Notes under the pieces: model-generated
Told to the model about the DNA's origin: nothing
The model's database searches: none
What the model saw: only the letters and a program-made list of their open reading frames with translations
In this document: piece after piece, positions 7,424 through 51,500 of the stretch
Numbering within the stretch: the first letter of the stretch is position 1
Layout of the letters: every line of letters starts with the position of its first letter
Position numbers and translations under genes: made by a program
NCBI RefSeq assembly: GCF_041146795.1
Contig: NC_135173.1
Coordinates: 54,686,365-54,750,364, forward strand
Length of the DNA: 64,000 bases
Origin: Maylandia zebra
Taxonomy: Eukaryota; Chordata; Actinopteri; Cichliformes; Cichlidae
Direction: 5' to 3'

Positions 7424-10400
7424 TATGAGAAGCTGGAGATTTTAACATTTGAGCCTACCTTCTTTTGATAACTGCTAGAAGTGGTACTGCCACAGGCACC
7501 AAAGACAAACTGACTCCAATTTCCTAAGATTTTTGGTCTTTGTTTCCATACAGGCAGAGCCACTGGTAATCGATTTGAAGGATCTATTCCAAGTCATCTT
7601 CAACCTGAGGAAGAAAGAGGCCGAGGGCACACAGAAGGTAATGGAAGCAGAAGCATTTAACTTCCGACTGGAAAAAATTTTCTCCAAGTGAATGGCAGCA
7701 TTTTCTTTGTGAAAGAAAAACACTTTCATGTGGTCCTCTGGGAGTGCTGACAGGGTACACACTGTATGTACCGCTTGAAAGTCAACACTGCCTCTCTGTG
7801 TTCTTTCAGTGAATCACATCCTCAGCCATTTTTCATTTTAGTGATGAATGCGTCATTTCAATGGAAAGTCTGTTCGTTAACAGTATGCCTCTGTTTACAG
7901 GTTGAAAATGGCAGTGATGTAGTGGAGGTAAGCAATTAAGTTTTTGTTTTTTTTTTCCTTAAAGCAGTTACTGACTTTTTTAAAATTTATTTTTGTACAT
8001 TTTTACTTTCTGTCTCTAGAATGGAAATGCCTTGCTATCTATGGGCAATGACGTAAAATCAGCTCAAGTAAGAGTTATTGTAATGTGTCCATCTTAACAG
8101 TGAATGAAATGTTGGAGTGCTTTATTTTCTTAAATGGCATGTTTCTGTTTCATTTTCACATCCAGCCAGTAGAGCAACATGACCTCTTTGGAGATATGTC
8201 AACCCCTCCAGACATTCAGGCTCCAAATGTAAGTATCACACCATGATGGTAAATATTTCTTTTAATATGGGGATTGTAATTGGTGAAGTGTATTATTACT
8301 GTATTTACACAATTGTGTACCTGCTAATTATTATCACTCTTATGTAATGAACGTATTTGTAAGAAATGACTCTATAGTAAAATCTCAACGCCCTCTGCGA
8401 ACTCCATTCTGAAAAGACTTGTGAAGTCATCAGATTCTGTTCATTTTAAGAATCTATGAAGAGTCTTTTAGGAATTGAGTTTATGCTTTGTGTTTTACTA
8501 GTCTCGTTGTTGTTGTTAACTTTAAAACTGCTACAAGTAGAATCTGTTAGACTTAGAGTTGTGGCAAATCTTTTACGCCGGTGCTGCTGAAATGTCTCAT
8601 TAACCTGAATTTATGGGTAAGTACCAAGCGCCGGCTTTGACTTGTAGTCCAACTTGTTGTTCAGAGCAAGTAGGATTACAGTAAGTGAGTTAGAAGTGGA
8701 CCCTAGACCTTAAAGTTGTCAGCATTAAATTGACAGCGACTCTTCATAATCTGCAAGTAGCAGTTTTAAAAAGGCATTTCTTTTTCACACCATGTGATTC
8801 ATTGTTCATCTTGTTAACACATCATTACCTCCCTTCTGCAGAAATGATTTATCCTTCTCTTTTTCTCACTGTCCCCTCTCGTGTTAACCAGGACTCTAAT
8901 GACATTCTCTTACTGGACTTTTCTGCTGAAGTTGACAGCAATCAAAATTGCATAAAGGGAAATTCCTTTGTAACTTCCTGTGCCCCTGACTATAGGGCAT
9001 ATCCCCAGACAGAGAATCCATTTTCCTCAACTTTTGGCTATTTCCCAACCCCAGACAGTGACCCTTTCAGAGATGACCCCCTTTCTAAATCACCCACTCT
9101 ATTGGCAGCTGATAATGCACAGATTCCCGTCAACACCACCACCAATCACCTAAACGGCACTGTTGGCAGCACTAGTAAGACAATTATTAATGGTGGTGTA
9201 AATGGAGACTCTGAACATCTCAGTCAGCAAATAAATGGGTTATCCAGGGAAACCATGATCCTCGCGCTCAGTAACGGACAGTGGCCGCTGGGGGGGAAAA
9301 TAACTCAGGGAAACACGACTACCATGATGGATGGAAATGAATCTGGACAAGTTCTCTCAAACAAAAATCCATTTTTTGACTCTTTGAAAACTTCCCCTGT
9401 CTCTAATGAAATGACCCATCGCCCAGAGCTGCCAGTGACTCATAGCAAGGATTCAGTTCTCATAAGCCCGCCTCCGCACAACTCTAAGTCTGGACGAGGT
9501 CGAAGGAGCGCAAAGGTGAAATAACACGGCTATGCCAATGGTAGTAGGCTTGCATGTGTTATGCGTTTTAATAAAAAAGGTTTACAACACATTTGGAGCT
9601 AACATCTCCCTTGAGCTTTTGGGTTATGCATTGGTGTTCGACAGGATAAGGCACTGAGAATGCACTGGGTTAGGGACTTTAATTTTGGAACTCTGGTCAT
9701 GGTCTTGTTGTTTGGATAACTTTTCTTTATGCATGCACTGGTGTTCGCATGCTTCTCGAACTGGCTTGAATGACTTTAACAATCAGCTGCTCATAATCTA
9801 TTTTCCTAATGTTCACGCTTCAGTGAAAAGAGCAGGGGTAAGTGGCAAAGCATGCAATCGTATGCTTAACTATAGTTAATTATTAGTTTCTCTTAAGCAT
9901 TTGTTAAATCTTAACTGCTACATAGTTGTGACTTGCTAACAAAATGTGTTGCATTATTCATTTTATTATTTATTTGTTTTGTGACTAGTCTACATCAAGT
10001 GATCTGTTTGGAGCAGAACTGTTCGCTGCTTCCAGTCAGTCTGAGGGGTCATCTGCTCCAGACCTCTTCAACAGTACACCGGCAAACTCTGCTCCCTCTG
10101 CCATAGCTGCTCTGGGTAATACACAGGAGGGGGAATTTGTATTTCACACATCTCTTTGTTTTTGTTTTTTTGTTTTTTTTAAAAACCTGTTTTGTGTCTG
10201 TAAACCTTTTTCTTCTTTTTGATATATTTAGGGAATCTCCAGTTGGGTCCACCAGCTACCACAAGTGTCCCTGCTGTAACCATGTGGGGAGCCTCCAGTG
10301 CTGCACCCAACATGTTCCCCATGCCAGGAGGGACAGTTCCAGGGCCCAGGCCCGCCTTCCCACAGCCATCTGCCTTTGGTCTACCCATACCACCAACAGG

Positions 10401-18121: not shown

Positions 18122-21100
18122 ATGTTCCGTCGGTCAAGATTTAGTGTGCGTCCCAATGTAAGTACAGCAGGGCGATCAGCACCTCCGGAAGCAACTCCAG
18201 CAAATCAGGAGGCCAGTGAGGCCCAGAGGGAGGTTGGGGACAGCAACAATGCTAGTGCTCTGACGGATAAGTCCGACATTACCCTGTCAGAAAAAGCTGC
18301 AGCTTCAGTGTGAGTTTAAAGTAAAGTGTCTTTGAATTATTTTAGAAGCCTTAAGACTATTTGTTATGTTTGACAACAATAACTTTTCTTACTACCGTTT
18401 AGGGATGGCAGTGAGCAAAATGTGGATGGTACCAGCTCTTCAGTGGCTGTCCAAAGAAGGAAACGATTTTCTGTTAAGCCTAAAGTGGCCCCTGGCCGCC
18501 CCTCTGCTCTCTCTCGGACACCAAAGTCTCCCATCAAAGCAGTCTCTCAAACATCTGTTGATTGCTCTGGTGCGGGCCTTGACAAGGCAAAAGCATCCAG
18601 TCAAACGGGAACAACAGCAACTCCGAAGGGACTCCAGTCTCCAAGGCGACGCAGGCCTTCAGAAGACGGCAAGCTGCCTAAAATTCAACCTAAACCCACC
18701 TCCATTTCTTTGGACGCTTCAGAATCTTCAGCTGTTTCCTCAGCTGTACAGTCAGTAGAACAAACCCATCTTCCAGCAGACAGTAGCAAACAATCAGAGA
18801 ACATTTCAGACAGACAAGTTAAGGAAGCTCCTCCCAGACCACCAGATAGACCCTCCATACCAGACAAAGAATCTACTGAACTATCGGAGAAAGCCAAAAC
18901 ACTTGCATCATCAAAGACTGTGCCTTCACTGACACCATCGGCACTCTCCCTGAGTAGACTTCTAAATGACCCATCAGACGTACAAAGGCTTGTGAAGGCT
19001 CAGAAGCTCAGAGATTTGCTCAGAGAGGAGAGACGCAAAGAAAAAGTGAGTCCTTGTCATTAACTAAGCATTTTAGCCATCTTGTCACAGGTGTCTGAGT
19101 TAAATAATGTATTCATCAGATATAAACTGTTAGCTTTATCATGATTTGTTAACTGAAAGGTGTGATGTCATTTGATTCTGCAGAAACTTAAGAAAGCTAA
19201 GGCTGTTTCGAAGGTATTTAATTTAGATCCTGCCAAAATGACCATGCGGGACCTTATCCATTATCTTCCAACGTCTAACCCAATGACGTGAGTATCTTGC
19301 AAAGTTGTGAAATTCATGTAATTATGTGATGTTAAAGTATGGGGGAGGCCATTGTTCAGGAGGCAGGCAGGAGGCACGTTGTCTACTATTCAGAAGGTTG
19401 GTGGTTTGATGCTCGACTGCTCCGTTGTGCACGCTAAAGTATCCTTGACAAGCAGCTACAAGTTGCTTCCGATGTGTTCATCGGTGTTAATGTTAGGTAG
19501 AAAGCACTTAGATGCAAAAATGTGCTTTTATGAATGTGTGTGTAAATGGGTGAATGAGATATGTTGCATAAAGTACGCTCCTGTAGAACAGTCCAGTCCA
19601 TGTACCATATATTTCACTTATGATGTTTTATATTGACGAACACTGATTTTACTTGAGAAAACTGAATTTTGAAATTCTTCCAGATCTGGTGTAGAAGAAT
19701 TGACCCAAGAGAATGAGACTGTGCTCCCACCTTCACCAGGAAGAGAAGCGTATGTTTGTCCTGTTCTTTAAATCATGTTTTTTTTAAATGGTTTGTCTAT
19801 GTTAAGCCTGTAATTCAAATGGAAATTACTTCAATGTTTGACATGCTTTTTTTGTCACATTTTCTTATAATATTTAAGTTTAAAAAGTTATGTTTTTTTT
19901 AATGCTGCAGAAGGACACACATGAACCATGTTCTCACTGTGTGCAATTGCTGATCATCTGTTGTTCCTCAAAGAAAGAGTCATAAACACAGTTTTTCATC
20001 ACAAAAAGTATTATGAAAAAAAATATGAATGAAACAAAACAAAGTTGAACACTAGAATTGAGTTTGTCCCAGCCAAACATTATTCGTTTAACGTGTTAAT
20101 TCAGTCTGTTTGAATCACTGAAAAGTGACTGCACATCTGATACAACAGAGAACTTGGTTTAAGTGTTTTAACTTTTTGGCGTACTTAAATGTGGAGGCAG
20201 CAGTGCATTTTAAACAGTTTGTCTTTCAAAAGCTGTGGCTTGCTGCACGTTTCAGAATGTGTAGAAAGTTTGTATACCAGTTGCTTATAATAAATTGATT
20301 TTTCTTTATTTTCTTTCTTCTTCTTTTTTAATGTTTGAAGGTCTCCAGAGCAGGCACAGGAACCTGAAATCCCCCCTAATACCATGGGCAACACAGAAGA
20401 AGAAGCAGAGGAGGCAGAGGAAGAGCAGGAAGAAGCACTTATGGTTCCTCAAGTCAAAGTTGCAGAAGATGGCTCACTGATTATTGACGAAGAGAGGTTA
20501 GTAGAGATTTGTAGACCATTTGATCTGTATCCCCAGGCAGGGATAGCTCATTAGGTAAAGTGGTCGCGCCATGATTGGAAGGTCGGTGGTTCGAATCCAC
20601 TGAACTGTTACTCTGAGGTACCCCTGAGCAAAGTACCGTTGTGATGGATTGGTGGCTGCTCACTGCTTCACTGAGTCAATGGGTTAAATGCAGAGAGTAA
20701 TCGGCCTACAGGGGATTAATAAAGTATGCATTATTATTATTATTATTATTTTATTATTATTTTGCCCCATCCATATAAAATAATTGCTTTCCTATTGTGA
20801 TATTGTAGAACGTTCAAACCATTTATAGGCTTTTTAAAACCCTTTCATCTTATCTCTCAGCTTAACTGTGGAAGTCCAGCGAGCCAAAGGGCCAAACCCA
20901 GCAGAGAATCGAGACCCCATCTTTGAACGAGGCTCCACTACAACTTACTCAAGTTTCAGGAAACTTAACCATGCAAAACGCTGGACCAGCGAAGGTGAGA
21001 CAGCCACAATATTAAAGGAACCTTATGCAAAGCAGCACTGGCTTTGCAGAGCAAAAGCACGAGACATTGGAAACAAATACGTGAGTTGTGTGTAGAGCTG

Positions 21101-24100
21101 GGCGATAGAACGATAACGATATGTATCGCGATATAACTTTTTCTCGATAGAAAAATTCAACTATCGTGATAGACCTCGCCGCTCTCGTCCTCTTTAAAAA
21201 AAAAAAAAAGGTCAGCCAATCCAAATTAAGTAGCGCAGAGCCGAACCAATCACAGCTGCAGCGTCACGTCACGTGACTTGTTACGTACAGCACAAGTGCC
21301 AAGCCGCACATGTGTATTTGTTTGGGAAGCAGCCAGCCACCGTACCGCCCGGGTAATGGAGGAAATGAGTGTGCCGACTAGAAAAATCAACCGAGCGTGA
21401 CCGAAGGTTACCGAAGAGAAAACAGATGATGGTTCCAATGCCGGAGAGATTGTCGAACGGAAGAGCCATAGAAGTTCCGTAGTGTGAAGGTATTTCGGCT
21501 ATTTCAAGTCTGACAAAAAACAGAGTAGTGTGCACTGTAAATTGTGCCGAAAGCAACTCTGGAAATACAATAAACTGGTGCATGCGCTACGTCCACACGT
21601 ACCCGGGTATTTTTGAAAACGCAGATTTTTCTATGCGTTTGCACCTTTCATCCACACGTAAACAGCGTTTTTGGTCACTGAAAACGAAGATTTTTAAAAA
21701 CTCGTAAACTTGCATTTACGTGTGGACTAGAAAAACGGAGAAAACGCAGCGTCAAAGGTGTGCGCATTTTTTGACGTCACACTGTGCGCCACGTTATTGT
21801 TTCGGTGAAATGAATTTCTACAATACTGTTAATTCTACTCTCTGCAGTGTTTAAATGCTTACATATACACACAGTTACTGTCCCTCCACACATACGACTC
21901 GGTTCTGCTTCTATGCCCCAGCTTTGTTTACTTTTTCCCACCGAGGCTTCTAGACTTCTGATTGGCCAACATTTCTGCACGGTTAGGAATCTAGTGCCAC
22001 CTGCTGCTTTGGCATGTTCATAGCAGCGTTTTCCTTCATTTCTCCCTTTATGTGTGGACGGGATTATTTTTTAAAACGAAAACGGAAAATCTCCGTTTTC
22101 AAAAATACCCGTGTACGTGTGGACGTAGCCTCAGTCTCTGACTGGAAGCGCTAATTCGTCATTCGGCTTTTGTCAGACTAAAGTAACTGTTAAAACTGTT
22201 TGAAAAGCTAAGCTATACAACAAGGAGAGATTGAGAATTTCCTTTTAGTTCTCAGTTTATTTGATACTGACAAAAGTTAGTCAGTTTTGTCTGTTCTTCT
22301 GTAAAACAAACTAAGATTTATTTTTAGAATTAATATTTTGTTTCTAAGTGGAATCGACAATTTAGTAGTCTGTTTCGTTTGTTCTATTTTGAAACTTAAA
22401 CGCTTTAGCGGCTGCCTTTTGTGTAGTTTGCAATATTTGCCTTTATTTATCTGAAAAAGTCTCATGTTCCTTAAGTACATCTACCCTGTTGAACTTATTA
22501 TGGGAAATAAATATTTAAATAAAAACAAGCTGCTGATTATTTCACATTTTACTTGTGAGCAACAGCACATTTAAATCTTACAAATATAGTTATTTGGCTT
22601 ATATCGTGATAGATATCGTTATCGCCTGAAATGAAAAAAACATATCGTGATATGAAAAAATCTTATATCGCCCAGCTCTAGTTGTGTGATGGGTCTTGTT
22701 TCCCCGTCCCACGGATACTTTATCAGATTGGGATCTGAGGAGTTCTTAGGTTGGATCAATTCCTTGTGTTCTTTTTTATTTTCCTTGAGTCCTGCTTGAG
22801 CAGTTTTTGTTGTGTTGCAGGCAGCATTGTTCTTCTGAGGAGGCTATTGCTGTCAGGGACTGTTGCAACATAGATACTGTATATAATTTGGTGATTAGCA
22901 AAGTCCTTTTTTGAAGCCTTTACCTATTGCAGGTAAAGGCTTGTCTGCACTGACTCGTCTTTTCAGGTCCTGAAGCCATCTTTTATATACAGTCCGCAGT
23001 AATAGTTAAGAGTGTGGCATGTGTCTAATTGAATGCAGAAAATTATAACCACACAGTCGATGCTGTGCACTTCACATGTGAATGGTTATAATACAGTGGC
23101 TTATCAGGTAAGATAAGCCACATATATGGTAACATATTAAGTGTTTTTATTATTTTGTTTTGATGCCTTTTTTGTGACTTTTCTTCTTAAATTTGTTTTC
23201 ATCAGAGACAGACATGTTCTTCCTGGCAGTTAGCATGGTGGGGACAGATTTTTCTATGATTTGCCAACTGTTTCCACACAGAGCTCGATCAGAGATAAAG
23301 GTCAGCGATAAATACAAGTATGCATGGTAAGAAAAAAGAGTTTAAAGTTGAACTAAATACACAGAACTGCAATTTTGAATTTGATCTTTCAGAACAAATT
23401 CAAGAAAGAAGAACGAGAGAATGTTTGGAGGATTGACAAAGCTATCAGTAAGTATTTAGTAATAATCTTCAAATGTAATTATTCACGTATGTCATTTAAA
23501 GGTTATATTTAATTGAAAATGGTAAAAAGACAATATATCAAATTTCAAAAAAAGAACGAATATAATATTAATTAGTAACATAACTAGAGAGAGAGGAGAT
23601 TATGCAGCATAGTGGGAAATACACACGCGCACAAAGTTCTGTGTTTTTGTTTAGTTAATTATAGAATCCCAAGTGTTCACAGTATTGTATGTTTTTCCCT
23701 TTTTTCCCTTCACATTTTACACAGTTGCCAAACGTTTTGGAATCAAAATAACCGAATGATTAACGTTCTGTGTGTACATTCTTAAATTTAATTTAAGTTG
23801 GCTGATGATTGTTTTGTAGGAGAGAGGCGCAAACTGGACATAGAGTACTTCTCTAAGCTGTTAGAAAAGATTTTGGAATATCAGAGAAGTAAGAAGAAAC
23901 TGAGATCAGTGGCTGAGAAGAAATCGTCCCAAAAGGGCAAGAGAAAGACAAAAGGTAAGATACAGTGGGGCAAAAAAGTATTTAGTCAGCCACCGATTGT
24001 GCAAGTTCCCCCACCTAAAATGATGACAGAGGTCAGTAATTTGCACCAGAGGTACACTTCAACTGTGAGAGACAGAATGTGAAAAAAAAATCCATGAATC

Positions 24101-27100
24101 CACATGGTAGGATTTGTAAAGAATTTATTCGTAAATCAGGGTGGAAAATAAGTATTTGGTCAATAACAAAAATACAACTCAATACTTTGTAACATAACCT
24201 TTGTTGGCAATAACAGAGGTCAAACGTTTACTATAGGTCTTTACCAGGTTTGCACACACAGTAGCTGGTATTTTGGCCCATTCCTCCATGCAGATCTTCT
24301 CGAGAGCAGTGATGTTTTGGGGCTGTCGCCGAGCAACACGGACTTTCAACTCCCGCCACAGATTTTCTATGGGGTTGAGGTCTGGAGACTGGCTAGGCCA
24401 CTCCAGGACTTTCAAATGCTTCTTACGGAGCCACTCCTTTGTTGCCCGGGCGGTGTGTTTTGGATCATTGTCATGTTGGAAGACCCAGCCTCGTTTCATC
24501 TTCAAAGTTCTCACTGATGGAAGGAGGTTTTGGCTCAAAATCTCACGATACATGGCCCCATTCATTCTGTCCTTAACACGGATCAGTCGTCCTGTCCCCT
24601 TGGCAGAAAAACAGCCCCATAGCATGATGTTTCCACCCCCATGCTTCACAGTAGGTATGGTGTTCTTGGGATGCAACTCAGTATTCTTCTTCCTCCAAAC
24701 ACGACGAGTTGAGTTTATACCAAAAAGTTCTACTTTGGTTTCATCTGACCACATGACATTCTCCCAATCCTCTGCTGTATCATCCATGTGCTCTCTGGCA
24801 AACTTCAGACGGGCCTGGACATGCACTGGCTTCAGCAGCGGAACACGTCTGGCACTGCGGGATTTGATTCCCTGCCGTTGTAGTGTGTTACTGATGGTGA
24901 CCTTTGTTACTTTGGTCCCAGCTCTCTGCAGGTCATTCACCAGGTCCCCCCGTGTGGTTCTGGGATCTTTGCTCACCGTTCTCATGATCATTTTGACCCC
25001 ACGGGATGAGATCTTGCGTGGAGCCCCAGATCGAGGGAGATTATCAGTGGTCTTGTATGTCTTCCATTTTCTGATGATTGCTCCCACAGTTGATTTTTTC
25101 ACACCAAGCTGCTTGCCTATTGTAGATTCACTCTTCCCAGTCTGGTGCAGGTCTACAATACTTTTCCTGGTGTCCTTCGAAAGCTCTTTGGTCTTGGCCA
25201 TGGCGGAGTTTGGAGTCTGACTGTTTGAGGCTGTGGACAGGTGTCTTTTATACAGATGATGAGTTCAAATAGGTGCCATTCATACAGGTAACGAGTGGGG
25301 GACAGAAAAGCTTCTTACAGAAGACGTTACAGGTCTGTGAGAGCCAGAGATTTTCCTTGTTTGAGGTGACCAAATACTTATTTTCCACCCTAATTTACGA
25401 ATAAATTCTTTACAAATCCTACCATGTGGATTCATGGATTTTTTTTTCACATTCTGTCTCTCACAGTTGAAGTGTACCTCTGGTGCAAATTACTGACCTC
25501 TGTCATCATTTTAAGTGGGGGAACTTGCACAATCGGTGGCTGACTAAATACTTTTTTGCCCCACTGTACGTCAACGTGATTTCTTTTCTCGTGTGATCAT
25601 TGTAGGCTGTATGTGAATATTTGGGAATTCTCCTTTAGCTTTTCCCAATTCAAAAGTCTATGTGCTCTTATTCCTTCTACAGCCAAAAAATCGGGAAGGA
25701 AACTGAGTGATGTGGAGGAGGAAGATGAGGAGGATGAGGATGGGAAAGAGATCCTGGGGTTGGAAGAGGAGGAAGAGGAAGGGGAGAAAGAGAATGAGGA
25801 TCTCTGTAATGATGGAGAAATTCCTGTTTCTGACGCTAAGACAAAAAGAGGCAAAAGAAAGAACAGACAAGTTGCTCTGGATGAGGAACCAAATGACAAG
25901 AGAACCAAACGAGTGAGCACTGAGCAAGGTACAGGGACTGTGAGCGGTTTTGTTGTTACAAAACATGTAGGTATGTGGTGATTTCGTGGTAGCTACCTTT
26001 TGTCTAACTGTTTGTTTGTTTTTTTAAATATTTCCTGAAAATTAAGGGTAATAACTTTTCCCCCCCCAAATCAGTACTCGTTTCCCCATGTTTTCTTGGC
26101 TTTTGTTAAAGTGCCACGCCATTTTTATTTTGCTTTTAAATTCTCAGATGAGGACGGCGTATGCGAAGATCCTGAGGCAGAGCTTCCTGACAACCACAAA
26201 GACTCAGACACGTAATGACACTAAAATCATATTGCTGTGAATATTATTTTTTTTGTACATATCTCTGCGATTAAAATCAGTTTCTTTCAAATGTTTAGGT
26301 CAGAGAAAACTCAAAATGCAAATACAGCTAAGGACACTGCAATCAAGCCAGCTAAACTCTCACGAGGCAGAGCATCAAAACCACTACTGCCTTTAGGCCG
26401 CAAATGGAGTAAAAAGCCTTCACCTTGTACAACAGCTAAAAGTACTTCATTGGATGAAGAAGATGAGAGTGTAAGTGGTTGAACTTGTAATAAGGTTATT
26501 TCACTTTCTGTTTATAAGCCTTGAAACCTTTTTATGAATACTGGCTTTGCTTTACTGAAACTTACTGTAGGTAAATAAAGATGCATCATCTTTAAGCCAA
26601 GCCAGCAGGGAGCCAGTCGGTGATGATATTTCCTCAGAAGGGGAGGAGGAGGATGCCATAGTTAAACCTCCAAGACCTACCAGGTACATGAATGTAATTT
26701 ACTGAAAAACTCCCATTCTGACCGTGTATCCACTGTATCCAGCGCTTAACAAATTTGTTAGACCACCTTTCATAAAAATAAGAAAACACAAATATTTTAG
26801 AAATCTCTCATAAACTTTTTTAAAACTAAAAATTAAATATTTGTTCAGCATATTTGTCCAGGAGTGAAGGATTTCAAACTGAATTCATGTTTGTATTCCC
26901 AGATTTCAGCCGGCACACTAGACTTTTTTTGAGAAATTAGCAATTAATCAAAACAGTTAATCAATTAATTCAATCAAACAAATGTTTCTGTTCACAAAGC
27001 AAGCAAATAGCTGTAATTTGACATCTTAATAAAAAAATAATAATGTGCTTTACTATTTTTTTCAGCATTTTTGTAAAAATGGTAAATTTGAAAATTGATG

Positions 27101-30100
27101 AATTACAATAAAAATTATTCCTTGGCATTTAAAAAATGACTTTGATTAAAGAGTTTAGACATACTGATGGATTCACCATTACAGAAACATATGAAAATGT
27201 TTTTTGTAATTATCAATACTGTTAATACAGGGTTTCTTGTCATCTAACATTGTCTGGTGGGCTGATAGATTTAAGAACAATATTCCTATTGATCATGAAT
27301 AAAGTGTTTTTATTAGTGTTTCATTTTGTTTTGTAGATGTGGTAGAGTGCCTAAACCCATCAAGCCCTTGACTTATCCAGCCAAAGATGAAGTACACTCC
27401 TCTGCATCTGAAACTACACCAGCCTCAGCAGCTGGGTCCACTGCATCTGCTGCTAAACCAAAATCCCAACAGGCAGCCAAGAAGAGAATCCTACCACAGC
27501 ATGATTTGGCCCCAAAATCCAAAAAGTGTAAACTTGTCACTCTCACAGCTTCTCAGACAGAATTTAGTGACGAGGACAGTCATCAATGGCAGGATGAAGA
27601 AGTGGAGGAGGTGGAACTCGCAGGTAGCCCCAGTAAAGACAGCAGTGCACCTGCGTTTGTGCCTGCCGGCCTGCACACTCCTCGTCCTGAGATTAAAGAA
27701 GTGGATGAGACAATTGCTGAGGTATGATAAACATTTTCTCCATCACATGCCTCACTAAAACACCAATCATTCTTTTTATTTTGAAATAATTCCCATGACA
27801 AACATTTTTATGTTTTGCTTTACTTTTTATTTGCGCATGGTTTTACATTCCAATCTTCCTCTGACTCCTCCTATGCCACCTGTAGCTTGATATCTTGGCC
27901 ACTATGCCTGATGTTTTGGGCATTTCCCAAGATGCACTTTGCCCCGATTCTGCTTGTGAGCAGGCACAACATGAGACAGGGTCAGCTGAACCATGTGAAC
28001 ATCAGTTGGACCTGTTGATTGTAAGTGACCTATGCTTAAGAAGTAGTACCAAGTTAATTAAATCATTAACCCCAATAACAGATCTGGGGTTAATGATTAT
28101 CATTCCAGAGCACTAATCTTGAAAACACAATTTTATCTATTATTAAAGGCTCAAAACTGAGTAAGTTCAACCTTTTATTTTTTTCTGCAGTGTCTTTCCA
28201 TTTTTGTTTTGAATACATGTATTCAGTATGTGGTTGAATTACTTACACAGCAATCAGGCAAAACATTATGGCCACAGACAGGTGAAATAAATAACATTCA
28301 TTATCTCATCATTGCACCTGTTACTGGGTGGGTTAGTGAACATTTTGTCCTCAAAGTTAAAAAAAAATTGAGGGCAAAATGTAAAAGGATTTGAGTTTGA
28401 CAAGACTCTTTTGGGACTTTCTCGGTCTGCAGTATTAGTCAATGAAGGAAGAATGGTGAACCAGCGATAGGGTCCTGATAGGCTCACTGCTGCATGTGGG
28501 GAACGTGCATCAGTGAGCCTTGGCCACCAATGACCAAGGCTGGCTTGTGTGGTCCGATCCAACAGATGAGCTAGAGTATCTCATATCAACAAGTTAATGC
28601 TGGTTCTAATTGAAAGGTGTCAGAACAAACAGTGCATCACAGTGTATGGAGGTGCATACCACAGACAAGCCAGGGTTCACATACTGACCCCTGTCCTTCA
28701 CCGAAAGTGCCACTTGAGCATCAGAACTAGACCATTGATAGAAGAAGGTGGCCTGGTCCAAATAATCACATTTTTTTTAATGTCACGTGGTTGGGTGCAT
28801 TTGCGCCTCTTACTTAGGGAACACCAGGATGTGCTATGGGGGGAAGGCAAGCCGCCAGTGGCAGTGTGATGTTTTGAGCAATACTCTGCTGGGAAACCTT
28901 GCGTCCTGCCAACCATATGGATGTCACTTTGTCATGCACCACCTCCCTAAGCACTGTTTCAGACCACCTTCATTTGGCCTCATTTGGAATGATAATGCGC
29001 CCCGCCACAAAACTAAAATGGTTCAGGAATGGTTCAAGGAGCACAACAAGGAGTTTGAGGTGTTGACTGACTCCCAGATTCCCCAGACTGCAGTCCAATT
29101 AAGCAGCTGTGGAATGTACTGGACAAACAGGTCTGATCCATGGACAGCCCAAATTTGCAACTTATAGGACTTAAAAGTTGCTAATATCTTGGTGCCAGAT
29201 ACCACAGTACAGCTAGAGACGTTCTATTGGAGTCCAAGCCTCGACAGACCAGGGCTGTTTTAGCAGCAAAAGCAGGATTAACACAATATTAGGCCTGTGG
29301 TTATAATGTTATGCCTGATCGATGAAAATTATAACATGCATAAATAACAATGTGGTTTGTAGTAAACCAGTTCAGTGATCAATAAGATTAGAAAGGTGCC
29401 TAAAATGTCATCTTTATTTGCTATACAGTCAACTGTAGATGTACATATCTGTACAGATGTGTACAGATGTAGAAAAGATATTGTAAATGAAGCAGTGTAC
29501 TGTACTTCATGTTTTTGTAAAACAGCTTTTGTGAATAGAAAGGAGAGCTTTTGGTGTTATTTATGATATGTGTGTTTGCTTTGCAGGATGTTATAGAATT
29601 TATTTCTTCAGAACATGCAGAAGGTATGTTGAAGATGTTTTATGATTATTTGCTTATGAATTTTATATATAGTTTTAGATTTAAAGTTCATATTTTTTGT
29701 TTGTCTTTTTATTTCAATATCTGAAGATCAGAGCTACAACGAGGCTGCTCAAACCCTGCTGACCATCGGAAACCTGAGTCACGTCTCTCAGTCGGAACAG
29801 AATCAAGTAGACATACGAGATCATGTAACAGGTTAGAAAGACAGAAAAGAGTCCTTATAATGGACAGTTTCATTTGTTGTTAGACTGAGCAACAGTCAAT
29901 GTAAAATGTGCCATTATATTTAACTGCAGGGACGGCATCAGCTGATGTGAATGAAACCACCCACCTAGAAAAAGGGCTTGTTTCCGATGCTGCTGTACAG
30001 GAAGAAAGTGCCACTCCTTCCGTGTCTGCATTTGATCATGATGTCACACAGACATCGGCGACTGTGGCCACTGTGGAACAACAAGTTAGCAAAACAGTCA

Positions 30101-39500: not shown

Positions 39501-42500
39501 GAAACATTTTATGGTGTCGCTTGGAAAAAAAAAGCAACAACAAAAAAAAAGAATGATTGTGCAAAGTTCTTTCTTTCTCAAGGGGACCTAAGTACAACCT
39601 TTTGGCTCACACAACCCTGAGAATTGAGCATGTCCGGGAAGGTTTCAAAACGCACGATTTATCACTTTCAGCGACAGGTGAGTCTCCTGTCCTGTCATTT
39701 CCTCTCCTCTCTCCTCCTTAAAATCTAAATATACATAAATAATGAATCTTTTTAAAATTCCTAATCCTTTTAAATGTTTTGCCAGAGGATAATCCATTCT
39801 GGTTGCCTTTGTACGGAAGTATGTGTTGTTGCTTAGTTGCTCAGCCTCTGTGCATGATTCAGCCAGTGATAAGTGGCCAAATCAAAATCAAGGTGACAGA
39901 ATTTTTTTTTTTAATTGTTCAATATTGTTATTCATTTATCATTATTATTCACATTATGACTTTTCTCACTGCTCTTGCTCAGCTCAGCTCAGAAGAGGAC
40001 TGTAATTATTCTGAAACTGTCTATGGTGTCCTCAAGAGGCAAGCCCTTCTCTGTTATCAAAGTCAAGAAGGCCTGGAGTCTGAGGACAATCCCTTGCTTG
40101 AGATTCCAATCACAAAGGTTGGTTCTAAACAAGCAAAGTCTGATGAATAAAGGCAGTGATTCATTTAGCATTTTGCCAGTGTTGATTATAATTACACACC
40201 AAGGCCACTAGAGTGCACTGACGAATTATTTAGTGGAGAGGAAAAGTGTTGTAAGGGTGAGGAGACTGAAATATTTTGCACAGTTCAAAACAGCTTTTTT
40301 AAAATTATATAGATAGCTCTAATTAAAATCAGTCATGTATGTTCAAAGCTAGAGATAAAAAAAAAAAGATAGCATCTCCTTGAATCCCCTCTTATTTCTA
40401 CCCTTTTAAAACCAAAAATAATTTTCTGTTTCGGCAGGGAACAACACTGAGATTACGAGCTCTTTTTAAAAAGATGTTGGTGTATCAGAATCACCACTGT
40501 TGCAAGGATAGACTCACCACAAGACAGACTAGGTTCAACTGAAGAAAATCTGAACTGCAAACACTTGAGTATAGATTTTCTCTTTACGTGTGAGATTTTC
40601 AGGGAGCCTTGTTTTTGAGAAGCTCAATTTTAACATGTGATACAATTAAATGGTGACTTTGTGTTGTGGGTATGCTCAGAGCAGCATACCCACAACACGA
40701 AGCTTGGCAGCTTTTGCAGGTGAGCATCATGGAAACATACCATGGAATTTCTCTCTATTAGCTAACAATGACCATTCAGCCTTTTTAATGCAGTATGGAA
40801 TGCAGTGATGAGCAGTTTATTGCCTGTGATGAAGCCATTTAGGTAATACAAAAGGTATTTCAGTAGATCAGCTGTAGCGTTGAGGCTACCTGCAGTGTCT
40901 CAGCTTATTCTTTGTTTTTCCTCCCAGGATACCGTTGTCTGTATGTCTGACAGAGATCCTGCCAATTGCCAGAAAATATACATCAATACACAACGTCAAG
41001 GGGAGGACATAACTTATGTGCTTACCACATACACACTTGAAGACACACAGCACTGGAGGAAGGCCCTCTGTCAGCACATCTATAGCATGAGTGAGGCCTG
41101 AATGAACTCTTTGTTTCTTTTGCTTGTTTTTTTGTTTTTTTAAGTTCTTTGGGCTTTACAAGCACGGACAGTCAAATCCCTGGCATGACCTACCAGCAGA
41201 ACTTCTTACACAATCTTTACACAGAGTGACGCTGGATTTGCAAGGGAGACGTTACAGGGATGTTTGGTCTGTCCTGTTTTTACTTCAACGAAATTATGAG
41301 TACGTTTATACAAGAACAGGGTGTGCACCAAACTAAACCAACAAGTGTGAACACTCTTTGAACAAAGAAAGTTCACACTTCTGCCAAGCTTGCATAATCC
41401 CCCAAAATACGATATCAAACTTGCAGGATGATTGTAATGAAATGTTTTGGAGGTGTGCATGCACCAAAAAGCACATGTGCAGCACAGTTCACAAGCCCAT
41501 AGACATCTGAAACTGATCACACGATTTGTTGTTCTGTTGCAACTTTGGATTTTTTATGATGCTTTTTTGAAACATAAGGAGTTTAAAAACAAAAAAGACA
41601 GCATTTATATCTTCATTAAACAAAGAAGGTGCAACCGGTAGGTGAAATAACCTCATATCACAGTCTGTTTATTAGTATTCACGTGTATCTCGGCTGTAAG
41701 AACTTCTGGTTTCAATTGGATGTACGGAAAAAGTGACGATATGATTTCATTAACTTTTATCGTCTTTGGGCGGAGCCACGGTAGTTGTTTTCCCCACTTT
41801 TTTTTTCAGTCTGCATACATAAGATAGTTGATAGTTGCTTGCAGTATCGTGTTGAGGCCTGATTACTGAGAATGTTGTAGGTTTTCATGCCTAGTGCTAA
41901 GTTATAGCAGGGCTTTGCCAAAACGTAAAAGTATTATTCTAAGATGCACAATCTTGTTTTTGATAAGGTTCCAGGTGCACAAAAAGAAAATCAAATCAGA
42001 AAGTAGCAGCGTGGAAATCAAGTAACTCATAATTAGCTTCATTCTAACTTCATTCTTATTTTTGGGCGATGCTTTTTAGCTTTTATTTTGATAGGACAAT
42101 GGTGAGAAGGCAGGAAAGCTGGGAGAAAGACTAAATGGCTGCTTCAAGGCAAAGCCAGGCCTCTGCATTTAAGCTGGTGGTTAACTAACACATTACAAGG
42201 TTTGCTGTATCAGTGGGTGCAGATTCATACAGTAAATATGCAACACATACAGTATGCCACCTCCTCATATTTCTTTGCATGACTGAAAAAGAAAATACAG
42301 ATTAACATAGTTGCAGTCACACCTGTGTTTTAATACAATAGAGCTAGACAAACAAAGTGAAATTGAATCAAACTCAGTCTCCATTCTTATGAATGGGTGG
42401 AGGCTACATATCAGGTTTACAGTCAGGTCAATAAATATTGGGACATCGACACAATTCTAACATTTTGGGCTCTATACACCACCACAATGGATTTCAAATG

Positions 42501-45500
42501 AAACGAACAAGATGTGCTTTAACTGCGGATTGTCAGCTTTTATTTGAGGGTATTTACATCCAAATAAGGTGTAGGAATTACAACAGTTTGCATATGTGCC
42601 TCCCACTTGTTAAGGGACCAACAGTAATGGGACAATTGGCTTCTCAGCTGTTCCTTGGCCAGGTGTGTGTTATTCCCTCATTATCCCAATTACAATGAGC
42701 AGATAAAAGGTCCAGAGTTCATTTCAAGTGAGCTATTTGCTTTTGGAATCTGTTGCTGTCAACTGTCAAGATGAGATCCAAAGAGCTGTCACTATTAGTG
42801 AAGCAAGCCATGATTATGCTGAAAAAACAAAACAAACCCATCAGAAAGATAGCATAAACATTAGGAATGGCCAAAACAACTGTTTGGAACATTCTCAAAA
42901 AGAAGGAACGCACTGGTGAGCTCAGCAACACCAAAAGACCAGGAAACAACTGCAGTGGATGACCGAAGAATCCTTTCCCTGGTGAAGAAAACACCCTTCA
43001 CAACAGTTGGCCAGATCAAGAGCATTCTCCAGGAGGTAGGTGCAAGTGTGTCAACGTCAACGTCAACAATCAAGAGAAGACTCCACCATTGTGAATACGG
43101 AGGGTTCACCACACGATGTAAACCTTTGGTGAGCCCCAAAAACAGGAAGGCTAGATTAGAGTTTGCCAAACGACATCTAAAAAAGTCTTCGCAGTTCTGG
43201 AACAACATCCTATGGACAGATGAGACCAAGATCAACTTGTACCAGAGTGATGGGAAGACAAGAGTATGGAGAACGAAAGGAACTGCTCACGATCCTAAGC
43301 ATACCACCTCATCAGTGAAGCATGGTGGTGTAAGTGTCATGGCATGGGCGTGTATGGCTGCCAGTAGAACTGGTTCTTTTGTATTTATAGATGATGTGAC
43401 TGTTGACAAAAGCAGCACGATGAATTCTGAAGTGTTTCAGGCAATAAAATCTGCTCATATTCAGCCAAATGCTTCAGAACTCATTGTACGGCGCTTCACA
43501 GTGCAGATGGACAATGACTTAAAGCATACTGCAAAAGCAACCAACGTTTTTGAAGAAAAAGAAGTGGACTGTTTTGTAATGGCCAAGTCAATTGCCTGAC
43601 CTGAATCCGATTGAGCATCCATTTCACTTGCTGAAGACAAAACTGAAGGGAAAATGCCTCAAGAACAAGCAGGAACAGAAGACGGTTGCAGTAGAGACCT
43701 GGCAGAGATCACCAGGGATGAAACGCAGTGTCTGGTGATGCCTATGTGTTCCAGACTTCAGGCTTTAATTGACTGCAAAGGATTTGCAACCAAGTATTAA
43801 AAAGTGAAAGTTTGATTTATGGTTCATATTTTGTCCCATTACTTTTGGTCCCTTAACAAGTGGGAGGCACATATGCAAACTGTTGTAATTCCTACACCTT
43901 ATTTGGATGTAAATACCCTCAAATAAAAGCTGACAGTCTGCAGTTAAAGCACATCTTGTTCGTTTCATTTGAAATCCATTGTGGTGGTGTATAGAGCCAA
44001 AAATGTTAGAATTGTGTCGATGTCCCAATATTTATGGACCCGACTGTACATAGCATTATTCTATATAACATGCTGATATCTGCTACCTACCTGCATTTAT
44101 TAATGCTGTTCATAGAATCAGATATATTTGCGTGACATTTTTTGTACTTTGTGTTATGGAGAAAAAATCTCTCTTATGTTGAACTGAAATCTGATAAGGT
44201 GTTTCAGTTTGTTTCTTATCTGGAAAAAAAGGGAAAAAATGCAATAACATATTTATCTATACATGGGGACGAGTGTAAGGGTTATCTACTGCATCAACAT
44301 ATCGTTCCACCTGTATCCACAATGCTGCAAGTGACATTATAGAAAGTCAAGAGACCAGCTGACGTGTATTTGTAATATTGTACATCGTGAGATGTTTAAC
44401 GCTTTACGCTGGTATTTCCCAAACGGGTGCCCACGGTGAATCGGGATAGATTTTACACCAAATGCCCTTCTTGACATAACCCTCTGATTTATCTTGTCTC
44501 TCTTCCTGGTGTCAAACTGAAAGGGTTTTGTTCACGTGCAAAGTGAGTGCGCTATCTGAGTTTATAGACACCGTTTGGTATGTGACTCTTCACACATCAG
44601 TAGACAGAGGAAGCATCAAACAGTTCACATACTTTGTTGTATTATTTCATTTTAGACTGCCATCAGTGTACACTCAATAACCTATATTTAAACTTAAAAG
44701 ACAACTAAATTCTTCTGCATATAATTAGAAGCCAAAACAGAGATGCAACATTGAACTCCACACGCGATCAGGTGATTTTCCATGAGATGTGTCTAGGGCT
44801 TAATTGGATTAAATGACGAGGCCTGGAGTCACCCGGGTTCTTTCTAGAGGTGTCCATGTGGCCTTGTTCACAGATTAACCAAGCAGGGAGGGTCATCAGC
44901 ACATTTATTTGACTAATCCCACATACACAGGGAGAGTCCTGTCTGTCTTTCTTTGGAAAGGTCATTCATGTAGAAATCATGATCATTAAAAAAGGTGTGT
45001 TTCTAAATAAAAATACATTCTGCATACCTCAGGGCTATTACTGTTAATCTTCATTGTAATCTTCTTTTAATAAGGCAACTGCAGAACATGTTGCTGCAAT
45101 GATATTGTGAGTAGGAGAATGTGACATTACGTCACTTGTTGATGTGAACAAGGGAGTTCTTGTTTGTCAGTGATCTGTCAGTGTGGATTTATTTATAAAT
45201 TTTATCGAGTTTTGAAAGAAAGTATTCAGAGAACCATCATGTGGGCTGCAACGTGCAAAAAAAAGATGCAATGACAGAGCACCTTGTACATCTAATATGT
45301 AATTGTGATTAAATTACATATTATTATGTTAAACAATCATGAACATAATAAATAATGTTAAATAGGGAAAATAAGCATAAGCTTATTTAATTCGAATTGC
45401 ACACAGACAGTGTGCACACAAGCCAAATCTGAGTGCAACACCGTCATGAAAAAAAGGCCTCTTTGTCTAGATAAGCTTGATTGATGATGCCTTGCAGTTT

Positions 45501-48500
45501 TAAGAGTTTTTGTTTTTTTAGTGGCTTCAGTCTGCGCTGCCTCTTGTCCAGCAGGTAAATCAAGACCGTGTCATCAGATGAGAATGTCTTTCAATGCTCA
45601 AGAATACTGAAATTACTGTACAATGTAAATCTGGTTTAATATTGGTCAATACTGAAATATTGCTTTTTAGCCAATGCAAACAATTATACTACTGATATGC
45701 TTTTAAACACCCATTCAGGGCAATAACAAACATGCTTGCCAGCTAATTTCAAAATAATTTGACAAGATAATTGCTGATGTCAATTTTGGATTGAATTCTT
45801 TTCTATTCATCTGCTACATAATTGTATAATATTTGTATTATTATTTTTGCAGGCCATTGGAAACAGTGCTGTGACAACCTCATGAAGATACAAATGCCGA
45901 GCTCCAGGAAATCAGTAATGACGAAGCAGGGATCTCTATACCATGAAATAGGTAGAGTAACATGCGCAATGACTGAGTGATGCCAGCTTATGCCACAGCC
46001 CCAGAGATGGTGTTCAACTAAAATCTTAAACTATCTTACCAGTCATTTGGTTTGCCTGACTTGGCCAAGGACAGTCTCATTCTCAAGTGTTTCACTTCCT
46101 GGTTAAACAACAACAACAAAAAAGTAACTGATTTTAATTTCTACATCTGACAGCTTTAATTTTTTATCATTGGATGTTTATTTTAAATTGACTTTAAAAC
46201 AACCCGAAGAGGAGACATGGGCGCATCCTCCCGCAGGCCCACCACCCGCAGGAGGCGCCATAGGGGTCGGGTGCATTGTGTGCCGGGTGGCGGCCAGGAG
46301 CGGAGGCCCTGGCGGACTGACCCCCGGCTGCCAAGACTGGCAATAGGGACATCGAATGTCACCTCTCTGGTGGGGAAGGAGCCTGAGTTAGTGCGTGAGG
46401 TTGAGAGGTACCGGCTAGATATAGTCGGGCTCACCTCTACGCATGGCTTGGGCTCTGGAATCAGTCTCCTGGAGAGGGGCTGGACTCTGTTTCAGTCTGG
46501 AGTTGCCCCTGGTGAGAGGCGGCGGGCTGGGGTGGGTATTCTAATATCCCCTCGGCTTGCTGCCGGTACGTTGGGGTTTTTCTCGGTGGATGAGAGGGTT
46601 TGTTCCCTGCGCCTTAGGGTCGGGGAACGGGTCCCGACAGTCATCTGCGCTTATGCGCTGAGTGGCAGTTCGGAGTACCCAGCCTTCTTAGAGTCCCGGG
46701 GGGGGGGCGGGGGGGGGGGGGTGCTGGAAGGTGCTCCACCTGGAGACTCTGTTGTCCTGCTGGGAGACTTCAATGCTCACGTGGGTAACGACAGCGAGAC
46801 CTGGAGGGGCGTGATTGGGAGGAACGGCCTCCCTGATCTGAACCTGAGCGGTGCTTTGTTATTGGACTTCTGTGCTAATCACAGTTTGGCCATAACGAAC
46901 ACCCTGTTCGAACATAAGCGTGTCCATAAGTGCACGTGGCACCAGGACGCTCTAGGCCGTAGGTCGATGAACGATTTTGTAATCGTATCACCAGACCTGC
47001 GACCATATGTTCTGGACACTCGGGTAAAGAGAGGGGTTGAGCTGTCAACTGATCACCACCTGGTGGTGAGTTGGATCAGGTGGCGGGGGAGGACGCTGGA
47101 CAGACCTGGTGCACCTAAACACGTAGTGAGGGTGTGCTGGGAACGTCTAGCAGACGCCCCAGTCCGCGACAACTTCGGCAGAGCTTCAACAGCATTCCGA
47201 GGGAGACTGGGGACATTGAGTCCGAATGGACCATGTTCAGCATCTCCATTGCCGAAGTTGCTGCATTGAGCTGCGGCCGCAAGGTGGTTGGTGCCTGCCG
47301 TGGTGGTAATCCCCGAACCAAATGGTGGACACCAGAGGTGAAGGGAGCCACCAGGATGAAGAAGGAGCCCTATCGGGCTTGGTTAGCCTGTGGGACTCCG
47401 GAGGCAGCCGACAGGTATCGACAGGCCAAGCGGAATGCGGCTTGGGCAGTGGCTGAAGCAAAAACTCGGGTGTGGGAGGAGTTCGGAGAGGCCATGGAAA
47501 AAGACTTTCGGACTGCCTCGAAGAGATTCTGGCAAACCGTCAGGCGTCTCAGGAGGGGAAAGCGGTGCTCTACCTGCACTGTGTATAGTGCTGGCGGAGC
47601 GCTGCTGACGTCGACTGAGAAAATTGTCAGGCGGTGGAAGGAATACTTCGAGGACCTCCTTAATCCCACTGACACGTCTTCTGAGGAGGAAGCAGAGTCT
47701 GGGGATGAGGGGAATGACCTGCCAATTTCTGGGGGTGAGGTCACTGAGGCAGTTAAACAACTCCTTGGTGGCAGAGCCCCTGGTGTTGATGAGGTCCGCC
47801 TGAGTTCCTGAAGGCTCTGGACGTTGTAGGGCTGTCCTGGTTGACATGCCTCTGCAATGTTGCGTGGAGATCAAGGGCAGTACCTGTGGACTGGCAGACC
47901 GGGGTGGTGGTCCCCATCTTTAAGAAGGGGGACCGGAGGGTGTGTTCCAACTACAGGGGGATCACACTCTTCAGCCTCCCTGGGAAAGTCTATGCCAGGG
48001 TTCTGGAAAGGAGAGTTCGTCCGCTAGACGAACCTCGGATACAGGAGGAACAATGCGGTTTTCGTCCTGGTCGCGGAACACTGGACCAGCTCTTTATCCT
48101 CTCGAGGATACTTGAGGGTGCATGGGAGTTTGCCTAACCAGTCTACATGTGTTTTGTGGACTTGGAGAAGGCATTCGACCGTGTCCCTCGGGTTGTCCTG
48201 TGGGAGGTGTTGCGGGAGTATGGGGTGTCTGGCCCATTGCTACGGGCCATTCGATCGCTATACAACCATTGCAAGAGCTTGGTTCGCATTGCCAGCAATA
48301 CAGCAATAGGTCGGACTTGTTCCCGGTGGGTGATGGTCTCCGCCAGGGCTGCCCTTTCTCTCCAGTTCTGTTCATAATTTTTATGGACAGGATTTCTAGG
48401 CGCAGCCAAGTGGCGGAGGGCTTTCGCTTTGGTGGCCTCAGAATCTCATCTCTGATTTTTGCGGATGATGTGGTTCTGTTGGCTTCATCGGGTGAGGGCC

Positions 48501-51500
48501 TCCAGCTCGGACTGGAACGGTTCGCAGCCGAGTGTGAAGCAGCGGGAATGAGGATCAGCACCTCCAAATCTGAGGCCATGGTTCTCAGCCGGAAAAGGGT
48601 GGAGTGCCCACTCCGGGTCGGGGATGAGTTCCTGCCCCAAGTGGAGGAGTTCAAGTATCTCTGGGTCTTGTTCGCGAGTGATGGGAGAAGGGAGCCGGAG
48701 ATCGACAGACGGATTGGGGCTGCAGCTGCAGTATTGCGGACGCTGCACCGGTCCGTTGTGGAGAAGAGGGAGCTGAGTGTAAAAGCGAAGCTCTCAACTT
48801 ACCGGTCGATCTACGTCCCTACCCTCACCTATGGCCACGAGCTGTGGGTAGTGACCGAAAGAACGAGATCGCAGATACAAGCGGCAGAAATGAGCTTCCT
48901 CCAAAGGGTGGCTGGCCTCTCCCTTAGAGATAGGGTGAGAAGTTCGGCCATCCGGGAGGGGCTCAGAGTAGAGCCGCTGCTGCTCCACATCGAAAGGAGC
49001 CAGCTGAGGTGGTTCGGGAATCTGACAAGGATGCCCCCTGGGCGCCTCCTGGGTGAGGTGTTCCAGGCATGTCCCACCGGGAGGAGGCCCCGGGGCAGAC
49101 CCAGGACACGTTGGAGAGATTATATCTCTTGACTGGCCTGGGAACGCCTGGGTGTTCCCCCGGATAAGCTGGAGGAGGTGGCTGGGGAGAGGGAGGTCTG
49201 GGCCTCTTTGCTTAGGCTGCTGCCCCCGCAACCCAGGCTCGGATAAAGCGGATGAAGATGGATGGATGGATGGATGGATGGATGGATGGACTTTAAAACA
49301 GACTTTTTCACTTTGACTTAATATCAAAAACAGATTGAAGCTACATTTACTGAATCTGTTTGACCACATGGCATAAGAGGAATTTAGCAGTAGCCTGATC
49401 TGGTATTACCTGGTTGCACATCCTCAGATGCTGAACTCCATAAGCATTTAGACTTATATTTCTACACCCTGATGTATGAATTAAGTATGCACTGTTCCTT
49501 ACCAGTGTTTGGTTTGTTGCCAACTTACAGGTGAAATATTTGTCTCTAATATCGCTAGCGTTGATATTTTTGTTGCGACTGGCTAGAGTTGAGGATCCAC
49601 TCCAATCTGATCTATTTCTGACTTTGGTTCGCTACTATTTGTGAAGAGCATATTCAGAGGGTTGTTTGAGGTTAAAAAACAATGATGTTGCATAAGAGTG
49701 ATGCAAAACAAATAAGCTTAGTAGCTCAGCCCAAGCCAAATGCCACTGGCATATAACACCTACACTATATTGTCAAAAGTATTCACTTGTCTGTCATTAC
49801 ACGCATATGAATATGATTCTTAATCCATAGGGTTTATTATAATATCAGTCCACCCTTTTCCAGCTATAACCTTTCTTTGTGCACTGGTGCGCAGTCATGT
49901 TGGAACAAGAAGGAGCCATCCCCAAACTGCTCCCATAAAGTTGGGAGCATGAAGTTTTCCAAATGTCTTGGTATGGTGAAGCATTAAAAGTTCCTTTCTC
50001 TAACTGATGTAATGGTGGCAAAGAGAGAAAGTGACGTAAGATTTGCGCATGCGTGGTACCCTATTGGTACCACGCAATCTATGGAGTCCCTTGTGGGGCT
50101 CCATAGATTTGTGGTAATTTTAAAAAGTTTACATTTCTTAGGCTTTCTTGTCTGAAGTCATTTAAAAAACCAGCGGCCAACAGCGCTGTACACAACAGTA
50201 GACTGGTGGGTAATAAGCAGTGTTGGGCAAGTTACTTTGAAAAAGTAATTTATTATAGTTACTAGTTACTTCTTCAAAAAAAGTAACTGAGTTAGTAACT
50301 GAGTTACTAGATTCTAAAAGTAATTAATTACTAGAAAAGTAACTATTGCGTTACTTAAAAAAAAAGTTTAACCCTCTGGGGTCCAGGGTATAATTGTCCA
50401 TTTTTGATTACTTTTGATTTTCCCGCTACATTTCACCTTTAAGTGCGCCCCAGGGCAGCTGTGGCTACAATGTAGCTTGCCATCATCAGTGTGTGAATGG
50501 GTGAATGACTGAATATAGTGTAAAGCGCTTTGGGGTCCTCCGGGTACCCCTGCCCCCAGAGGGGCAAACCGTACCCGGATCCAGGAGATGCAACCCTTCT
50601 CTCTGGGGTGGAGGAAAGCAGACCACCTCCTTATCTGCAGTAGCAGGGAGGCCCCGCCCACTCATATGTAGTGTTGCTGCGTGTTGTTGTAAAGTGCATT
50701 TAAAACAAAGGGAGGGCATGGTGCTTCTTGCCAGAGAGCAGCACGGCTCTTCCCGAAAACCCTGACACACACAACAAAACTATTGACTATACTACACACT
50801 AACTACACAAGATTTGCACTAAACGTTGCAAATCTCTCACTTCTCAAAACACCGCTGTCACTCCTAAAACTTCCCCTCTTCTTAAACAACTAAATGCTGT
50901 GAGCTGTCGGCTTTCAGACCCGACGGCGTGTGTCCGCGTCCATTTCACTTGAAGGCACATAGGGTGAGAAAGCTGACATCTCACTGATTCTGATGCGTCG
51001 GCGGGTCCGCGCTTTGTGTCTACCTCTTTTTGCAGAATCCATTTACCTGTTCTGTTTTGCTGTTTTAGCTGTTTGATGGTGTTTGAAATAGTTTTCTGAG
51101 CTTTAACCTGAGATTCTTCTGTTTATGGCAAAATACATGTATATTTAAAAATCGATGCAGGATTTTAATGAATCAATATCGCTTTATTAAAGCTAAAATC
51201 AATTTTAATCAATAAATAGATTATTGAAACCCACTCCTAGTAGCAATGTCTCTGTGAATGGTACTCATGGCCATTGATCAATGGTCTTTGATCAATGGAC
51301 TTCGATCAGTAGTTGTTAATCAATGGTCATAGGAATTTGCATCAAGGAACTGACCTCCCAGCACATTGTTCATTCGGTGGTGCTAGTTTCAGTCATTGTG
51401 CAATGTACTCTTTATAAGGTTGGTCACTTGGATGAGTGACAATACGTTTCTCCCACTGAAAACACTTTCTCCAGATGAACTAATCAACCTTTTGGGATTT

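Follow-up and report, generated by a model that had tools for sequence, protein, structure and literature searches.

A complete, possibly autonomous IR/DR DD34E/Tc1 transposon in an intron of BDP1 in Maylandia zebra

A Tc1-type transposon of 1604 bp occupies exactly positions 23963-25566 of the window (the whole stretch of 64,000 nucleotides from Maylandia zebra that was analysed here) and lies within an intron of BDP1. With a probability of about 0.9, it is in kind and in way of working a complete, possibly autonomous IR/DR DD34E/Tc1 transposon, with paired arms, direct repeats, a duplicated TA target site, an open transposase frame and a catalytic triad (Table 1). It is an ordinary new copy of a known kind.

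Table 1. Coordinates of the transposon, its parts and the adjoining BDP1 exons in the window
Feature	Position	Strand	Basis and remarks
BDP1 exon directly upstream of the insertion	23820..23954	+	limits set by eye from splice signals; donor AAAG/GTAAGATA
TA target-site duplication, left	23961..23962	.	directly from sequence; BDP1 intron bases 7-8
Left terminal inverted repeat, 200 bp	23963..24162	+	starts CAGTGGGGC; 2 mismatches against right arm
Outer direct repeat, left arm	23963..23988	+	recurs as the inner copy, offset 174; ungapped score 16
AATAAA, left arm, downstream of transposase stop	24124..24129	-	pattern match; candidate polyadenylation signal (putative function)
Inner direct repeat, left arm	24137..24162	+	matches outer repeat at offset 174; ungapped score 16
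Transposase ORF of 340 codons and a stop, with D153/D244/E279	24179..25201	-	ORF, Pfam, SB100X 5cr4 at E 2.6e-87
TATAAA, about 45 nt upstream of transposase ATG	25247..25252	-	pattern match; candidate TATA box (putative function)
Right terminal inverted repeat, 200 bp; carries matching outer and inner direct repeats	25367..25566	-	sequence; repeat score 15
AATAAA, right arm, sense to host gene	25400..25405	+	pattern match; putative effect
TA target-site duplication, right	25567..25568	.	directly from sequence
Next BDP1 exon, tested as far as 25912	25683..25912	+	in-frame join to upstream exon; acceptor CTTCTACAG

The two arms differ only at arm positions 53 and 175, and outside each of them stands a copy of the TA, so that terminal inverted repeats and target-site duplication are found in the combination that is typical of DD34E/Tc1 elements. 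Arms of this length are beyond chance, since inverted pairs of at least 60 nt number just three in the entire window (218, 202 and 71 nt). Within each arm, a repeat of 25-26 bases is present as an outer copy, which begins at the element tip, and as an inner copy, which begins at arm position 175, 174 bases further on. The ungapped score of the left-arm pair was reached by none of 500 shuffles of that arm (shuffle maximum 13), while the score of the right-arm pair was matched by 1 of 500 shuffles of the right arm. Arms of about 200 bp that each carry two direct repeats constitute the IR/DR layout, which is the arm layout of Sleeping Beauty (SB) (PMC8151067) and is also found in long-repeat salmonid Tc1 families (PMC2198921). 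Five end-sequence words of the element were sought literally in the literature and no occurrence was found.

The transposase reading frame is unbroken over its 340 codons, running on the minus strand from 25201 down to 24179 including the stop, and the Pfam families HTH_SB, HTH_Tnp_Tc3_2 and DDE_3 all exceed their curated cut-offs, with HTH_23 slightly below its own. Residues 114-340 align to the catalytic domain of SB100X (5cr4) without a gap, with 135 of 227 residues identical (59.5%) and with D153, D244 and E279 in register, and the N-terminal part matches SB DNA-binding subdomains of known structure (2m8e, 6urs and 5unk), its PAI part being identical to SB at 27 of 53 positions. A spacing of 34 residues separates the second D from the E, as in the DD34E group, and of the Tc1 motifs, WSDE and SPDLNPIE agree with the list in PMC5630946, whereas the second motif reads QHDND, as in SB100X, instead of the QDND of that list. 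Single-sequence AlphaFold2 prediction was poor (mean pLDDT 42.2) and confident only for about residues 1-50. A stop-free frame of 327 codons (24237-25220, plus strand) lies on the strand opposite the transposase frame, covering most of it, and, though long, is probably a by-product of codon use.

These observations bear out what the preliminary description had claimed of the structure, namely a complete element with both TA duplications, 200-bp inverted repeats with two differences and a lesion-free 340-aa transposase that keeps D153, D244 and E279; the direct repeats were found in addition to all of these. If the element works as Sleeping Beauty does, the transposase would be transcribed from its own start region and its N-terminal domains would bind to both direct repeats, outer and inner, of each arm, after which the DDE domain would excise the element and join it into another TA, which would be duplicated in the process.

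Among fish Tc1 families, the zebrafish transposon ZB, which is usable without reconstruction, measures 1597 bp, with arms of 201 bp and a transposase of 341 aa (PMC7913693). For the DDE region, PMC9777934 gives identities of 58-61% between SB and the ZB groups and of 68% between SB and SB-like elements, and it places intact fish SB-like copies at 1621-1753 bp. The identity of 59.5% to SB lies within the ZB-group range, which does not part ZB from ZB-like elements, and the sizes of 1604 bp, 200 bp and 340 aa are as compatible with SB as with ZB and ZB-like elements. They exclude SB-like elements only, for which both the identity (59.5% against about 68%) and the length (1604 bp against 1621-1753 bp) are at odds with the published values. 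Placement on the ZB/ZB-like side is most likely, judged by a single identity figure whose residue limits may differ from those used in PMC9777934. The element resembles ZB and ZB-like transposons in HTH/DDE layout, in TA duplication and in near-equal sizes, as compared by published description. It likewise shares with Sleeping Beauty (SB100X; 5cr4, 2m8e, 5unk) the length of 340 aa, the residue numbers of the triad, the IR/DR arms and the order of domains, but differs from it in the catalytic domain and the PAI part to the extent given above, and an SB-type Tc1-like end primer (PMC4683633) matches the element at 12 of 25 bases. Since an intact copy was found in 183 of the 316 genomes that carry ZB-like elements (PMC9777934), an intact copy is expected here and comes as no surprise, and the rarity that the preliminary description had implied is overstated, intact copies of this class being common.

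Searches outside the animals, which say nothing on fish, gave no relative: prokaryotic genome and viral contigs (one pattern match each) contained no relatives of the transposase in a single-protein query that reaches close relatives only, the element DNA had no match in phage and plasmid collections, and no ZB or ZB-like sequences were found in the prokaryotic, viral, phage and plasmid collections.

The element could instead belong to the Group 1 (DTSsa1) Tc1 transposons of lampreys and teleosts and have been acquired by horizontal transfer. It is alike in approximate length (1600), arm length (200) and CAGT ends (table 1 of PMC2198921), and also in its 340-aa frame (PMC2198921), all of which it shares with DTSsa1/Group 1 elements of salmonids and lampreys. 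The six published primer sites argue against membership, as they match the element at 94 of 126 bases, or at 82 of 106 when primer 1F, whose best match in the element is out of place, is left aside, whereas identity within Group 1 amounts to 92.5-100% (PMC3516227). This comparison covers the primer sites only, and the primers perhaps sit at group-specific sites, so that the match may understate overall identity. Judged by the primer sites, membership in Group 1 is very improbable, and the ZB/ZB-like side is kept as the preferred placement.

The host gene was recognized from four exons upstream of the insertion, delimited by eye, which together match the TFIIIB B'' homolog chain 5n9g at E 2.2e-50, and the Pfam family Myb_DNA-bind_7 is found in the BDP1 exons upstream of the insertion. 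BDP1 is needed for RNA polymerase III transcription. The exons that flank the element share one continuous reading frame, and the intron between them is 1728 nt long with the element and 122 nt long once the element and one TA copy are subtracted. The insertion lies at a TA 7-8 nt inside this short intron, in an orientation that sets the transposase antisense to BDP1. Because the first eight bases of the intron are intact, normal splicing is plausible, and the element is probably spliced out together with the intron. An assembly artefact is rejected, since the TA duplications are clean and lie inside a gene with exons that read on in one frame across the insertion. A literature search found no paper that combines BDP1, a transposon insertion, an intron and a teleost.

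The same position raises the alternative that the host has recruited the insertion, either as a domesticated transposase or as an intronic polyadenylation switch in BDP1 that would act through the sense AATAAA of the right arm. The presence of this hexamer and the location of the insertion directly after intron base 8 would suit a switch, but AATAAA alone is a weak sign, and it occurs in each arm because the arms are copies of one another. Complete arms and TA duplications favour a mobile unit, and domestication is rejected on account of the complete mobile structure; host recruitment as a whole is exceedingly improbable.

No other copy of the element's own family was detected within the window (blastn, E up to 1e-3). 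Other Tc1-type copies are present, and the preliminary description, which held that most fish Tc1 copies are broken, including seven others in this window, was generally right on breakage, but its count of seven was not reproduced: tblastn, phmmer, blastn and inverted-repeat searches yielded three clear remnants (42418-44048, about 28990-29290 and 1075-1705) and two weak protein matches (E 0.012 at 53.1 kb and E 0.099 at 37.2 kb). This count leaves out protein matches with E above 0.1 and draws on the longest 25 of 92 inverted pairs, and heavily decayed copies may escape such searches. The element at 42418-44048 has arms of 218 nt (TA counted) with 6 mismatches; its transposase is broken by frameshifts and stops and is 32% identical to that of the 23963-25566 copy over 298 aligned positions, and the two elements are distantly related. 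The other clear remnants are fragments. The one at about 28990-29290 consists of two pieces (E 0.001), and that at 1075-1705, which we take to be Tc1-type from its end sequence, is framed by a 71-nt inverted pair with 82% complementarity and resembles a Tc1 copy with an internal deletion.

The window also holds repeats and frames of other kinds. Directly repeated 8-bp sequences (GTTGTGTG, at 21085-21092 and 22681-22688) enclose the inverted ends TAGAGCTGGGCGATA of an element at 21085-22688, presumably hAT-like; nested within this element is an inverted pair of 44 nt (21586-21629/22086-22129). A non-LTR retrotransposon remnant lies at 46187-49132 (plus strand), with Exo_endo_phos and RVT_1 in separate open stretches. 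Two long frames at 8694-9524 (plus strand) and 59470-60837 (minus strand) resemble, as we assume, DAB2-like and ARID-family genes; Pfam gave no match for them at E 0.001, and Rfam gave none for the window at its gathering threshold.

The element had also been called young, which fits the 2 differences in 200 arm positions and the open frame, but inverted-repeat identity is no clean clock, because the two arms may already have differed at insertion. Had they been identical at that time, the differences would correspond to 1.2 My (95% Poisson interval 0.15-4.4 My) at a rate of 4.13e-9, which was taken from PMC7913693 and was not made for this host, and this age is not relied on. With an assumed indel rate, the frame would still be open with a probability of about 0.47 if divergence were 0.5%, of 0.22 if it were 1% and of 0.05 if it were 2%. 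Arm differences and open-frame odds together make youth a reasonable reading and mobility a possible one, and the insertion is probably recent.

Whether the copy still moves is a separate matter, as an intact-looking dead copy would have the same identity and would differ in activity only; its frame would be open by luck, missense changes or silencing would have put it out of action, and it might be fixed in the species. At 0.5-1% divergence, where under the same assumed indel rate the frame would be open with a probability of about 0.47-0.22, some 3.5-7 missense changes would be expected, and PMC3516227 regards most Group 1 Tc1 copies of lampreys and teleosts as inactive. Against a dead copy, every motif looked at is kept and the SB alignment is gapless across 227 residues. 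Taken together, the odds of a dead copy stand at about even, and those of present-day activity fall slightly short of that. It is unlikely that the element is, beyond this, a natively active autonomous ZB-like transposon that still segregates in the host species, is usable unreconstructed and has recently passed between distant fish.

The eight leading intron bases that were spared in BDP1 may illustrate how copies of this kind can be tolerated within a host gene. If active, the element would add one more native vertebrate transposon that is usable as it stands; otherwise it represents a routine case of recent Tc1 activity.
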